64,000 bases of DNA. Source: Prosthecobacter sp. (lineage in GTDB: Bacteria; Verrucomicrobiota; Verrucomicrobiia; Verrucomicrobiales; Verrucomicrobiaceae). A program made the translations under genes and the position numbers. Positions 26,147 to 31,487 of the stretch are shown in pieces. Position 1 is the first letter of the stretch. Every line of letters begins with the position of its first letter. The notes below the pieces were generated by a model. It searched no databases, had not been told where the DNA came from, and saw nothing but the letters and a program-made list of their open reading frames with translations. The stretch spans positions 1 through 64,000 of the forward strand of contig JAIPJY010000031.1 in assembly GCA_021733925.1 (NCBI GenBank), given 5' to 3'.

Positions 26147-26168
26147 GCGCGTGGGGGCTGCTACTTCG
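26139..26168. terminator. Hairpin between convergent genes
   Basis: CGAAGTA (26139-26145) and TACTTCG (26162-26168) are perfectly complementary around a 16-base G-rich loop. The stem spans both stop codons of the convergent permease and cytochrome-peroxidase-like genes, which lie only 14 bp apart. It could act as a shared terminator but lacks a T-tract. Confidence 0.35.
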
Positions 26169-27888
26169 TGAATTTTTCGTCCGTCAGCGTCTTCAGGAAG
26201 GCGACGAGCGCGGCTTTGTCGGACGCGCTGAGGCGGATGCCGGTCGGCGGATGTTTGGCAAGGTTGGGGTCCAGCGTGTCGGTGCGGCGGAGATTGTGAT
26301 CGTAATGGGCGATGACTTCTTCCAGTGTCTGAAAGCGACCGTCATGCATGTAAGGCGCGGTGAGGGCGATGTTGCGCAGGCTGGGCGTGGAGAACTTGTA
26401 GAGATCCCGGTCATTCTGTGTGACGCGGTGGCGGCCCGTGTCTGATTCGACGGGGCTGAGGCCGTTGTTGTGAAACTGATGGTCGGTGAAGAGCGGGCCG
26501 CCGTGGCAGTGGAAACAGTCGGCGCCGCGCTGACCCATGCGCGGCTCGTATTCGGTCATGAAGAGCTCGAAGCCACGCTGCTCCTCCGGGGTGAGCTGTT
26601 CCTTTCCCTGCATGCTGCGGTCGAATTTGGAGTCGTAGGAAGTGAGGGTGAGGAGGTAGTTCTCGATGGCGAGGCCGATGCGTTCGGGCGTGATCTCGGC
26701 GCTGTCGAAGGCGCGGGCGAACTGTTCCTTGGAGGTCTTCTCCAACTTGGCGACGACGTTTTCGAGCTTCTCATCCATTTCGAGGTGATCCTGCACAGGC
26801 ATGAGGGCCTGGGCGCGCAGCGAGGGTGCGCGGCCATCCCAGAAGAAGCTGGTCTTCCAGGCGAGATTGAAGAGCGGCATGCCATTGCGAGTGCCGATGC
26901 GGTCTTCAACGCCGGTGCTGAAACGACGCGGATCGGTGAATGCATTGGCGCGTGTGTGGCAGCTGGCGCAGGAGAGCGTGCCATCGCGCGAGAGGGCGGT
27001 GTCGTTGAACAAGCGCTCGCCTAGCGCGACGCGCTCTGCCAGCAGCGGATTGTCCCGTGGCAGCGGCGGGATGGGAAAGTAGCGGCTCATGGTGAAGCGA
27101 TAGGCCACGGGCTTTTGCGGAAGATAAAGAGGCCTGATGGTCGAGGGCCGTGCTATGGCGGGGATGCTGCTGGAAATTTGCCGGAGCGTGAATGCCGCAG
27201 AGAGATTGGCTTTGAGCGCGGCCACGACGGGATCGCCAGCGTGCGAATGCGTGGAGAGGCCGTCTTTGACGAAGGAGAGAGGCTGTGGGCCACCTAACAA
27301 CGTGTGGAGGTCGAAGGTGAACGCGGCGCTGGCATCGGCGGTGAGATTGAAATCGCCGGTAAAGTTGAGCGCGGTGCGGTTGGGATCGCGCGCGAGGTGG
27401 TAGGAATAGCCGCCGAGTGCCTGCCCGGGGACACGGAAGCTGCCTTCGAGCGCGAGAAAGATGTAACCGCCCTGCCAGCTCCAGTGCAGGCCGTTTAAAT
27501 TGGGATTCAGCGGATGATCGGGCGCGTACTGTGCGGGAGAGGCGGCATTGGTTTTCGCATCAAGGCCCAGGTGGAGGCGCATCGCCTGGTATTTGCCCGC
27601 AGGGATGTTTTCCAGCGCGGTGTCGAACCTGCGTTTTTCAGCATCGATCCACGCGATATGATCGGGTGCCTCCCACCACGTGCCATCCGCTTTTTGCAAG
27701 GCAAAGCCGCTGAGCAAAAAACTGCAGCGCGTGACCGAGAAGGTTTCACCCGCCTGCGTGCTGTAACGCAGGGAGTCGAGCAGCAGCGGCGCTTTCTCCG
27801 CCACCGGCGTGAGGGTGAGATGCAGCGTGCTGGCCGCCGCGACATGCGCGAGGGCAAACAGGGCGCAGAGATGGATGCGGAACTGCAT
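26161..27888 (-). CDS. MbnP-like / MauG-like di-haem peroxidase fusion
   Basis: A 575-aa exported protein. The ATG at 27888 is chosen because it starts directly at a signal peptide (MQFRIHLCALFALAHVAAA); an upstream ATG at 27918 would add 10 residues. Residues about 20-240 resemble MbnP-like proteins: a beta-rich domain with Trp-rich stretches (GTWWEAPDHIAWIDAEKR, LHWSWQGGYIFLALEG). Residues about 275-575 are a cytochrome c peroxidase/MauG domain with CASCH (C307-H311) and CFHCH (C458-H462), plus PSLRNIALTAPYMHDGRFQT. In the methanobactin system the separate di-haem enzyme MbnH converts a Trp of MbnP to kynurenine to make a copper site. Here enzyme and substrate would be one chain. A YHYH protein is encoded 56 bp upstream. 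The copper role is inference. Confidence 0.85.
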   Translation of the reverse strand: MQFRIHLCALFALAHVAAASTLHLTLTPVAEKAPLLLDSLRYSTQAGETFSVTRCSFLLSGFALQKADGTWWEAPDHIAWIDAEKRRFDTALENIPAGKYQAMRLHLGLDAKTNAASPAQYAPDHPLNPNLNGLHWSWQGGYIFLALEGSFRVPGQALGGYSYHLARDPNRTALNFTGDFNLTADASAAFTFDLHTLLGGPQPLSFVKDGLSTHSHAGDPVVAALKANLSAAFTLRQISSSIPAIARPSTIRPLYLPQKPVAYRFTMSRYFPIPPLPRDNPLLAERVALGERLFNDTALSRDGTLSCASCHTRANAFTDPRRFSTGVEDRIGTRNGMPLFNLAWKTSFFWDGRAPSLRAQALMPVQDHLEMDEKLENVVAKLEKTSKEQFARAFDSAEITPERIGLAIENYLLTLTSYDSKFDRSMQGKEQLTPEEQRGFELFMTEYEPRMGQRGADCFHCHGGPLFTDHQFHNNGLSPVESDTGRHRVTQNDRDLYKFSTPSLRNIALTAPYMHDGRFQTLEEVIAHYDHNLRRTDTLDPNLAKHPPTGIRLSASDKAALVAFLKTLTDEKFTK

Positions 27889-27973
27889 GGAGGAGATGAG
27901 CGCGGAATGCTGCGGCATGAAATCAGTTTTTGCACCGCCGGTTGCGAGAACCGACTGCCTTCAGGAGCGCAGC

Positions 27974-29752
27974 TTAGTTGATCGTCAGCGCGCCTGTCAT
28001 TGTGTAGGTCGGGTTGGGGTTGAAGGTGACCACGATGTTCTGCGCGCCCGTGGAAGCGTTGGCTGGGATCACAAAGGTGGCGATCACCGTGCCCTGCGCC
28101 GGGCGCGAGATGCTGGTGCCGCTGATGCTTCCCGCCAGCGTCACGCCAGTGGGAATGAGGTTGGCCGGCGGCTGTGGTGGTGTGGTGGGCAGCGTGATGG
28201 TGACGGTGACCGTGGTGCCCCGTGTCACCGTGTCGCCGGGAGCATTCGCAGTGCCATTTCCGGTGGTGCTCGTGGCGTAGTCGAAGCCCATGCTGTCAAA
28301 GTTCGCGAGCGCTTCAGCGCGGGTGATCCGGTAAAAGCGAGGGCCGTTTCCGGCGCCTCCCGCGTCCACGGCCTGTGCTTGATCATCACCGCTCAGCGCA
28401 CCGGAGGCGATGTCCGACCAGTTGCTGAGGTCCGTGCTGGCCTGCACCGTGTAGCTGCCACCCTCGATACCGCTCCAGGTGATCGTGACGTCGCTGGCGC
28501 CCACGGCTGGCGCATTGAGCACATCGGTTTTGTTGGGACCGCCGCTCCAGCTGGTCGTGACCGTCTCCGTGATGCTGGTGACGCCACCGCCGGTGGGGCT
28601 GCCGTAATACTGACGGCCGGTCGTGTAGGGATACTGGGGCGTGCCGTCGGCATTGATCGGCGTGAAGTACGCCCAGGTGCCGGAGGGATATTCCGGTGTC
28701 ACGCAGTAGCGCACGTTCTGCTCGTTCAGGTCAAAGTCGCGTACCGTCGATCCGGTCGTCTGCGTCTGGCTCAGGTCACCGCGGTAGTCGAAGTCCTCGA
28801 TGTAGTGCCCCAGCGCGTAGGTGGTGTTCACGGCCGGCCCATACTGAGCGCTCGTCAGCGTGGTCTTGTTTTGAATGCGTTGCGCCCAGAGCGGCAGCAC
28901 CTGCCGGACGGTGATGGCGGTCGTGCCTTGGGTGCCGTCCCGCAGCACAAAGCCGGAGATCATGCGCCGCACACCGCTGGCGGGATTGGTCGGATCAGAG
29001 TAGCCATACGGCCCGTAGATGGGCAGTCCGTCCGCCGCCCAGGCGAGAATGGGCGAGTGCTTCGTGGCTGTCCCGGCGCTTTCCACGTAGCGGTTGGTGG
29101 TGGCGTTGTAGTCCACGTGATCGCCAAGCTGATAGCGCAGGCCGATGGGTTGCGCGTGGTAGTGGTAGTTGTTGCCCGCCTGATGTGCGAGCGCCGGGTC
29201 AAAGGTGACTCCTTCATTAAAATAGCCGTCGCGGTTCCAGATGCCATCTCCGGTGAGGCCGTTGGTCGGTGTGGCGTCTGTGCCGCTTGCATTCACATAG
29301 GAAAAGGCGTCACGGCTGTCGAAGATGGACACGCCATTGACCGCACGGCCCGTGGAGCCGAGACCCGTGCTCGTCTTGGTGCCGGGAATCACCGGCGTGC
29401 GCGGGATGCGGTAGATCGTGGCCGTGTTGGAGGGGAAGTTGGGAAAGTTCTGTGTCTTCGACGAATCCAAATACCACGGCCCCATCATGTGGCTGGCCAG
29501 GCCGGTGGTGCGAATGTACACCCAGGAGGCGGAATAGAGGATCTCGCTCACGCCCGCGTAGGTGGGGCTGCTTTGCGTGCCGGAACCCCGGCTCCAGGTG
29601 GTGGACTTGGTGCCGGCGCTTTCGGCGCTGGTGTCCTGGTAAAGACGGGCGTACTGCCCCGAGTCGGTGGTGTACCACGAAGAGAGCTGGGGATCTGCAT
29701 GCACCATAGTGGCGGCGGCGAGCAGCAGGAGCGAAACAAGGCGCGGTGTCAT
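27974..29752 (-). CDS. Secreted YHYH-domain protein
   Basis: A 592-aa secreted protein. The ATG at 29752 begins a signal peptide (MTPRLVSLLLLAAATMVHA); a TTG 24 nt upstream is less likely. The central YHYH domain (about 85-330) has the signature NNYHYHAQPIGLRY (near residue 193) and ILAWAADGLPIYGPYGY. A fibronectin-like or Verrucomicrobia-type module with YTVQASTDLSNWSDI follows (about 430-490). A C-terminal Thr/Pro-rich beta domain (TVTVTITLPTTPPQPP) ends the protein and may be for surface or outer-membrane attachment. YHYH proteins are poorly characterised; the paired His/Tyr suggest metal binding. It is first in a two-gene unit with the MbnP/MauG-like fusion. Confidence 0.85.
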   Translation of the reverse strand: MTPRLVSLLLLAAATMVHADPQLSSWYTTDSGQYARLYQDTSAESAGTKSTTWSRGSGTQSSPTYAGVSEILYSASWVYIRTTGLASHMMGPWYLDSSKTQNFPNFPSNTATIYRIPRTPVIPGTKTSTGLGSTGRAVNGVSIFDSRDAFSYVNASGTDATPTNGLTGDGIWNRDGYFNEGVTFDPALAHQAGNNYHYHAQPIGLRYQLGDHVDYNATTNRYVESAGTATKHSPILAWAADGLPIYGPYGYSDPTNPASGVRRMISGFVLRDGTQGTTAITVRQVLPLWAQRIQNKTTLTSAQYGPAVNTTYALGHYIEDFDYRGDLSQTQTTGSTVRDFDLNEQNVRYCVTPEYPSGTWAYFTPINADGTPQYPYTTGRQYYGSPTGGGVTSITETVTTSWSGGPNKTDVLNAPAVGASDVTITWSGIEGGSYTVQASTDLSNWSDIASGALSGDDQAQAVDAGGAGNGPRFYRITRAEALANFDSMGFDYATSTTGNGTANAPGDTVTRGTTVTVTITLPTTPPQPPANLIPTGVTLAGSISGTSISRPAQGTVIATFVIPANASTGAQNIVVTFNPNPTYTMTGALTIN

Positions 29753-29900: not shown

Positions 29901-31487
29901 TCACGGCTTCACGTCCCGCAGGTTGACCATGAGCAGGTGTCGCACGCGCGGTGGTTCGGAGCCGCGATGGAAGCTCTGCACGGCGCGCTCGATGCGCTGG
30001 TCGTCCATGGTGGCGCGCTCGTGCTGCCGCAGATGTTCGGCCCAGGAGCCGACGAGGAAGGTTTCACGGTAGTGCGTGGGATCTTCGAGGTCTGCGAAGA
30101 GTGAGCAGCGGAAGGCGCCATCTCGCAGCCGGGTCTCTCGCAGCTGCAGCATGGCGGCCCGAAAGGCGGGGGCGTCTTGGGGATCGATGTGATACTCAAG
30201 GGTGATGAGCACGGGGCCGTCGCTGGGGGCGGGCTCGGTGGTCATGGCGCTGTGAGGCAGCATGTGACCGGAAGGGCTGAGGTCGAGCTTTTCGACATGG
30301 CTGATGGGCAGCAGACGCGCGAGCAGGGCGCTGAAGAGCAGACAGCCTGCGGCAATGCCGAGCGCGACCGGCGCATTGAGATGGCTGGTGAGTTGACCCC
30401 AGGTCAGGGCACCGATGGCAAAAGCGCCCTGCATCACGACCAGATAAATCGCGGAACTGCGGGCACGAACCCAGTTCGGGAAGACGCTTTGTGAGGCGAC
30501 GCTGAAGGTGTTCATGCCGCTGATCCACGCCGCACCTGTGACCATGAGCACAAGGCCCATGGCCAACTTTCCAGGCACCAGTGCGATGATGGAGGTGGCC
30601 ACAGCCGATACGACGCTGGCACCGAGCAGCACCTGATCGAACGAAAAGCGCTCGCGCATCTTTGGCAGCCACAGCAGAGCCATGAGGATGGCCCCGGCGC
30701 CGTAGCAGCCCATGAGCACACCGAAATCTGCGGCGGTCCATTGCCGCGAATGGACGATGACCGGCAGCAGCACCACCGGAGCGACGGCGGCAAACATGTG
30801 GATGCCGCCACGGCAGAGCACCGCCTGCATGGCACGTGCATGGCGAGCGTAGCGGATGGCAGCGGCCATGGCTCCGAGCATCTGCTCCTGCTGCGCGCTG
30901 CGCGGCGTGGCGATGTAGCTGCCGGTGCACATCACACCAATGACCGCGAGAAAAGACAGGGCGTTCAATGCGAACACCGGGGCCGGTCCCAGCGCTGCGA
31001 GCAGCAGTCCGCCAAGGATGGGGCCGAGGGAGCGGGCGATGTTGAAGCCCACACCATTGAGAGCGATCGCGGAAGACAGTTGCTCGCGGCCCACCACTTC
31101 CGGTATAAGGGCCTGCCAGGCGGGCATGGTGAAGGCGGCGGCGACGCCGAGCTGAAAAGTGGCGAGAAGGAGCAGGGTCTGTGTGAGAGCACCATACCAC
31201 GCCAGCAGCGCCATGCCGACGGCGGTGAGCAGGGCGCCGGTTTGCGCGATCAAGATCAAGCGCCGACGGTCCACCAAATCTGCCAGCGCTCCGGCAGGCA
31301 GCGCCAGCAGGAAGAGCGGCAGGCTGGACATCGTCTGCATCAAGGACACGAGGTAGGGCGAACTCGTCATCGTGGTCATCGTCCAGACCGCCGCCGTGTC
31401 ATTCATCGTCGTGCCTATATTTGACCCGATGCTGCCCAGCCACATGGCACGATAGACAGAATTGCGGAGCGGAGACCAGGCTGACAT
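29901..31487 (-). CDS. MFS transporter with C-terminal monooxygenase-like domain
   Basis: A 528-aa protein. Residues about 15-410 form a 12-helix major facilitator domain of the EntS/DUF894 type (FRNSVYRAMWLGSIGSNIG-like start; LVSLMQTMSSLPLFLLALPAGALADLVDRRR, the loop 2-3 motif; LNGVGFNIARSLGPILGG). Residues about 425-528 form a soluble ferredoxin-like domain of the antibiotic biosynthesis monooxygenase type (VLITLEYHIDPQDAPAFRAA; YRETFLVGSWAEHLRQHERAT). This fusion is a known family, annotated as an exporter of small molecules or siderophores. It is divergent from a DUF1501 gene, so the 123-bp gap should hold both promoters. Confidence 0.9.
   Translation of the reverse strand: MSAWSPLRNSVYRAMWLGSIGSNIGTTMNDTAAVWTMTTMTSSPYLVSLMQTMSSLPLFLLALPAGALADLVDRRRLILIAQTGALLTAVGMALLAWYGALTQTLLLLATFQLGVAAAFTMPAWQALIPEVVGREQLSSAIALNGVGFNIARSLGPILGGLLLAALGPAPVFALNALSFLAVIGVMCTGSYIATPRSAQQEQMLGAMAAAIRYARHARAMQAVLCRGGIHMFAAVAPVVLLPVIVHSRQWTAADFGVLMGCYGAGAILMALLWLPKMRERFSFDQVLLGASVVSAVATSIIALVPGKLAMGLVLMVTGAAWISGMNTFSVASQSVFPNWVRARSSAIYLVVMQGAFAIGALTWGQLTSHLNAPVALGIAAGCLLFSALLARLLPISHVEKLDLSPSGHMLPHSAMTTEPAPSDGPVLITLEYHIDPQDAPAFRAAMLQLRETRLRDGAFRCSLFADLEDPTHYRETFLVGSWAEHLRQHERATMDDQRIERAVQSFHRGSEPPRVRHLLMVNLRDVKP

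Follow-up and report, generated by a model that had tools for sequence, protein, structure and literature searches.

The window analysed here is a 64,000-nucleotide stretch of DNA from Prosthecobacter sp. (Verrucomicrobiota; assembly GCA_021733925.1, contig JAIPJY010000031.1, positions 1 to 64,000). It contains an open frame that joins an MbnP domain to a two-haem domain of the MauG/MbnH type, next to a gene for a YHYH protein. The fusion is genuine and conserved: it puts the MbnP/MbnH pair into a single chain, its copper site is predicted to be altered, and a YHYH protein often accompanies it. The genes and their features are:

26161..27918, minus strand: MbnP-MauG/MbnH fusion gene, an open frame of 585 amino acids (aa)
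27268..27831, minus strand: MbnP domain (PF20243), residues 30-217
27463..27486, minus strand: HWSWQGGY, residues 145-152, with W146 the candidate Trp for kynurenine
27397..27399, minus strand: codon of His174, which aligns on one of two invariant His residues in six canonical MbnPs
27247..27249, minus strand: codon of His224, which aligns on the sole invariant Met, start Met aside, of the same six proteins
26164..27084, minus strand: two-haem MauG/MbnH-type domain, residues 279-585
26956..26970, minus strand: first haem motif, CASCH, residues 317-321
26503..26517, minus strand: second haem motif, CFHCH, residues 468-472
26302..26304, minus strand: codon of Tyr539, aligned with MauG Tyr294
27974..29752, minus strand: YHYH protein gene (PF14240), 592 aa, upstream of the fusion gene, with a start that looks like a signal peptide by eye

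The original prediction placed MbnP-like and two-haem CCP/MauG domains on one polypeptide, and both Pfam families were found in the 585-aa frame. PF20243 matched residues 30-217 (E 5.8e-30, 105 bits where the cut-off is 27) and CCP_MauG (PF03150) matched residues 295-441 (E 1.1e-51, far over the cut-off). A model of the N-terminal domain fits the MbnP fold in structure matching, and these E-values together with the structure match exclude a chance match for the fusion domains. The YHYH gene was likewise where it had been proposed, upstream on the same strand, with a PF14240 match of E 1.5e-27 (97.2 bits against a cut-off of 25). Counted to the first ATG of the fusion gene the gap is 55 bp, and to a second ATG at 27888, from which the sequence resembles a signal peptide, it is 85 bp.

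The prediction had staked itself on an MbnP fold and on a conserved Trp in homologous fusions; the fold is that of the structure match, and the Trp is W146. We aligned 118 fusions, namely the window protein and 117 distinct rows, with identical rows merged and L002, a second view of the window, not counted. Of the 118, 117 retain W146; the exception, L119, is cut by a contig end, so the residue is present in 117/117 rows that reach it. W148 and H145 are each kept in 115 fusions, and H174 and H224 each in 117. The domain had also been called Trp-rich. This holds for the WxW motif, which is strictly conserved, but not for TWWEAP (residues 80-85), where W81 is found in 102/118 rows and most rows have a residue other than Trp at position 82. 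No fusion has four Cys in the MbnP domain (0/118), although 43/118 have at least one, and there is no conserved Met column, the best reaching 41/118. All 46 fusions scanned matched the MbnP model TIGR04052 at E values up to 0.001.

In the C-terminal half, the Cys and His of the haem motifs are kept in 117-118 of the 118 fusions and W360, Q370 and E380 in all of them. The best sequence match in the PDB is MbnH (6e1c), and by model matching the nearest solved structure is MbnH or MauG. Tyr539 (Tyr in 117/118) aligns within a gap-free stretch to MauG residue 294, a Tyr that we take to be an axial ligand; a structure of Y294H MauG was present among the structure matches. The fusions carry the traits of the MbnH/MauG group, two CxxCH motifs and a Tyr at the axial place. 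Classical bacterial cytochrome c peroxidases have an axial Met at the second haem, where the fusion has Tyr539 instead.

To place the putative copper ligands, we used six split MbnPs from plasmids. These share the WxW motif, two invariant His, six invariant Cys and, besides the start, one invariant Met, which stands before Ser in five of the six. Profile-profile alignment of the fusions with this set (98.9%, E 2.1e-17) and a separate alignment by MAFFT agree in pairing His174 with an invariant His and His224 with the Met. In a 2021 study of Methylosinus MbnP, the first Trp of WxW was reportedly converted to kynurenine and copper was said to be bound by one His and one Met. The fusion site is predicted to consist of two His and the kynurenine; it would thus deviate from canonical MbnP in having His in place of Met and in lacking conserved Cys. 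The Cys set and invariant Met that mark the canonical TIGR04052 proteins are both absent from the fusions. Two His and a kynurenine are found at copper in the crystal structures of CorA and MopE*, according to two reports (PMC3912023; MopE*, PMC3423442).

One genome, G009, also encodes an MbnP-only protein of 327 aa (L146:11595-12575, minus strand), without a MauG domain and with a full fusion ∼7 kb away. At the WxW place it reads LHRGSRGG, both Trp being lost; position 174 still has a His, but the motif of His224 is, by eye, missing too. This single case fits a Trp that matters only with the enzyme attached, and the frame could alternatively be a decaying gene.

The fusion is common in Verrucomicrobiota. 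A second one, of 604 aa, lies on another contig of the window's own genome (L001), and PF20243 occurs in 49/68 genomes of the family, in 156 of the 386 genomes sampled from the order and, for the phylum as a whole, in 16 of a sample of 288. In the phylum sample, 19/22 PF20243 matches are in frames of at least 580 aa; the other three are two stretches of one broken-frame gene (G174) and a truncated gene (G187). Both domains share a frame in 130/134 loci, a set that partly overlaps and includes two or more loci from the window's genome. The four remaining loci are L049 and three that were chosen for YHYH, L003-L005, of which L004 shows only part of the window. L049 (G187) comes from outside the window's class and has a YHYH gene followed by an MbnP gene that, by eye, is shortened by a transposase-like gene.

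Among the matches listed for the family and order, PF20243 lies in a frame of less than 500 aa at 12 places. Ten of these are at contig ends (G588, G581, G617, G431, G422, G007, G008, G457, G367 and G005), one is a frameshifted fusion (G559) and one is the MbnP-only protein of G009. No intact, adjacent split MbnP/MbnH pair was found among the same matches, and 0/364 matching plasmid records covered 80% of the fusion. The 80 named loci used below rank highest among at least 587 matches; they were chosen by likeness to the window protein and are not an unbiased sample. Their titles name Verrucomicrobiota, except one that says just ‘bacterium’ (L073); given how they were picked, they say nothing on other phyla, where fusions are possible. 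Two frames in G020 (L147:3536-7012 and L148:3062-6316) open ∼500-600 codons ahead of the MbnP domain with no Pfam family in the extra stretch, part of which may be untranslated. In G392 (L156), a frame of 1647 aa gave matches to MbnP, MauG and YHYH together; we rejected this triple fusion as an assembly-gap artefact because the frame crosses unknown bases and the YHYH part starts with a signal-peptide-like stretch of its own.

The 21 fusions chosen for a tree of 31 C-terminal domains form one clade (100/99). Six split MbnHs form another (100/99), which stands beside the fusions without enclosing them, although the join is weak (91/76). With the fusions in one clade, the simplest account of this tree, which samples few split forms, is that the domains were joined once. 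The fusion might instead be an ordinary domain shuffle without self-modification. Domain fusions are common, but nothing direct favours this explanation, whereas the retention of the fusion across the phylum, the conservation of both active sites and the single clade all speak against it, and we regard it as very improbable indeed.

The YHYH gene is linked to the fusion at the level of both genome and locus. PF14240 was found in 30/288 genomes of the phylum sample, including all 16 with MbnP (hypergeometric 2e-18, with shared ancestry ignored). A YHYH gene lies on the same strand within ∼3 kb in 11 of these 16 (G000, G278, G301, G338, G085, G247, G285, G235, G174, G151 and G187), and 4 kb off on the opposite strand in G002; by coordinates, no YHYH is nearby in the other four (G206, G014, G018 and G046). 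Of the 80 named loci, 70 could be tested, ten being set aside where the upstream sequence was too short. A core-only profile detected YHYH at 36/70, two of them partial (L075 and L080). The nearest copy was on the same strand in 36/36: 31 are directly upstream, three directly downstream and two upstream with a spacer. An initial tally of 37/70 included L081, which was rejected because Pfam assigns no YHYH to its match, a multicopper-oxidase protein. The neighbourhood, for which the original prediction had proposed a survey, recurs widely, but within the locus sequence examined YHYH is missing at about half of the testable loci (34/70).

In a midpoint-rooted tree of the 118 fusions, labelled from the 37/70 tally that includes L081, YHYH-linked members fall on both sides of the root with 15 changes, which suggests an old link with frequent losses. 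Few of the 49 MbnP-bearing genomes in the window's family show it; among the matches listed, G000, G031 and G005 have the closest pairs, and partial YHYH matches lie 3-7 kb upstream in G055, G037 and G048. Four His residues (190, 197, 199 and 232) and several Asp/Glu are kept in 37/37 YHYH rows; the YHYH proteins also hold invariant Trp and Tyr. The conserved His, Asp and Glu would suit metal binding; a model of the protein gave no match in the PDB. YHYH would be a frequent but dispensable partner, perhaps a metal-binding acceptor or anchor.

Other YHYH proteins were also seen. In L063, L116, L126 and L156, YHYH and sulfatase domains share a frame beside the fusion gene. The window's genome has a second, shorter YHYH type on another contig (L143:8072-9094, minus strand, 235 bits), and matches of at least 190 bits occur in at least 61/68 genomes of the family among the matches listed. 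In Deinococcus (L142), a YHYH gene is directly ahead of a HupE/UreJ-family gene, another possible metal link.

Starting from what is established, namely the fusion, its two folds (as model matches), the conserved residues and the recurring YHYH link, we infer a chemistry, a copper site, an order of events and a role for YHYH. The chain would be exported and haem attached. The C-terminal domain would then be oxidised to a high-valent state by H2O2, or by O2 and electrons, and would convert Trp146 of its own chain or of a neighbouring one to kynurenine. The mature site of Kyn146, His174 and His224 would bind one copper ion and handle copper outside the cytoplasm. The fusion likely functions like MbnP/MbnH, and putative self-modification is the leading reading. 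We consider it probable that the system is a secreted or periplasmic single-chain MbnP/MbnH that makes a Kyn146 copper site with YHYH as a dispensable partner. A more specific proposal, a self-maturing His2-Kyn copper protein of Verrucomicrobiota with YHYH as a third, undescribed component (copper acceptor or second substrate of the MauG domain), is put forward only tentatively.

Several results weigh against the single-chain MbnP/MbnH reading. The N-terminal half scored 28.2 bits with TIGR04052, for which the equivalog cut-off is 140 (NCBIfam). As a single sequence it found no MbnP in the PDB, and as a profile, at E up to 5, it found one entry, 7l6g, weakly (E 0.16). With PDB sequence matches absent or weak, the assignment to MbnP rests on Pfam, the profile-profile comparison and structure. 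The best NCBIfam matches of the C-terminal half were MbnH (TIGR04039, 220.1 bits of 362.85) and MauG (TIGR03791, 175.8 bits of 443.85), both below their equivalog cut-offs. Tyr is also at the axial place in MauG and two annotated peroxidases, the three outgroup enzymes, as well as in the Deinococcus enzyme, so axial Tyr alone is no marker of a Trp-modifying enzyme. By alignment, it sets the group apart from classical peroxidases but not from MauG-like cousins. Copper-type query genes were within 400 bp of the fusion at just 5/80 named loci, and by Pfam the neighbours of the window's fusion (a lactate permease and an MFS exporter) give no pointer to copper.

The low equivalog scores of the C-terminal domain would also suit an enzyme half that acts elsewhere, in peroxide removal or on another protein such as YHYH, with the MbnP half a copper or docking domain in which WxW stays Trp. 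The invariant Trp and Tyr of YHYH, beside the fusion at about half of the testable loci, are in keeping with such a substrate. However, the axial place holds Tyr where classical peroxidases have Met, W146 is invariant whereas W81 and residue 82 drift, and the MbnP-only paralogue has lost WxW. We judge this explanation unlikely.

Same-strand genes no more than 400 bp away were counted in the 80 named loci, each type being recognised by its similarity to a single Pfam-typed member; the counts are raw, without a background rate. CusA/CzcA pumps are upstream in four loci, over the cut-off in all three scanned, and in L081 an RND adaptor with a heavy-metal-binding domain, below the CusB cut-off, follows the multicopper-oxidase gene. 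Sugar-dehydrogenase-like genes were found at 5/80, PQQ-propeller-like at 8/80, DUF7133-like at 5/80 and sulfatase-like at 12/80, several of the last inside the YHYH protein. These, and a galactose-oxidase-like protein adjoining the G009 fusion (L146:3-2210, minus strand), could mean that the system helps to oxidise or desulfate carbohydrates outside the cell and is not one of copper homeostasis, with the fusion as redox centre for exported dehydrogenases, oxidases or sulfatases. Such genes are perhaps common in these genomes, however, and the WxW/His site is constant while the neighbours vary; we give this proposal little credence, though a role near extracellular oxidases is possible. On balance the neighbourhoods, including CusA/CzcA, L081 and the Deinococcus CopC/CopD genes described below, favour copper handling. 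In the window, an MFS_3 exporter gene (29901-31487, minus strand) is directly upstream of the YHYH gene on the same strand.

If a self-maturing protein is correct, enzyme and substrate in one chain would ease study of Trp-to-kynurenine chemistry, with fixed stoichiometry and no complex to assemble. The MbnP site would tolerate a Met-to-His change, converging on the MopE/CorA site, and kynurenine copper sites would extend to a large phylum distant from methanotrophs. YHYH would gain a functional link and, as a component of the system, would be a functional family and not a mere motif name.

By sequence, the fusion is a member of MbnP in the broad sense and of the MauG/MbnH group, but falls outside the canonical equivalogs. 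We found no title on an MbnP-MauG fusion in the literature searched, most subscription journals lying outside its scope. The pair known from Methylosinus and its relatives, MbnP (7l6g) and MbnH (6e1c), has in common with the fusion the folds, gene order, WxW, one invariant His and the axial-place Tyr; the fusion differs in being one chain without conserved Cys, with His224 for the invariant Met, and in falling below the TIGR04052 and TIGR04039 cut-offs. No methanobactin genes were noticed beside the fusion, and PMC3621798 describes the pair as conserved well outside methanobactin producers. In the public records of L138-L141, the two-haem gene after MbnP is named ‘methanobactin export MATE transporter MbnM’, although match and tree say MbnH-type. 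MauG, unlike the fusion, is a separate protein that acts on methylamine dehydrogenase, and its TIGR03791 cut-off is not reached here.

A Deinococcus radiodurans plasmid (L159) resembles the fusion in its Cys-less MbnP with WxW (WAW), His174 motif and adjoining two-haem enzyme; its MbnP and peroxidase genes stand in a row with CopC and CopD. It differs in having two genes, a His224 place that is not clearly conserved and an enzyme on a long, unsure branch. In the MopE/SACCP and CorA/CorB systems of methanotrophs, the copper ligands are two His, water and kynurenine, and the partner gene encodes a di-haem peroxidase (PMC3912023). These are separate genes, and CorA has Kyn-x-His spacing; their ligand set is the one predicted for the fusion, as residue types by alignment.
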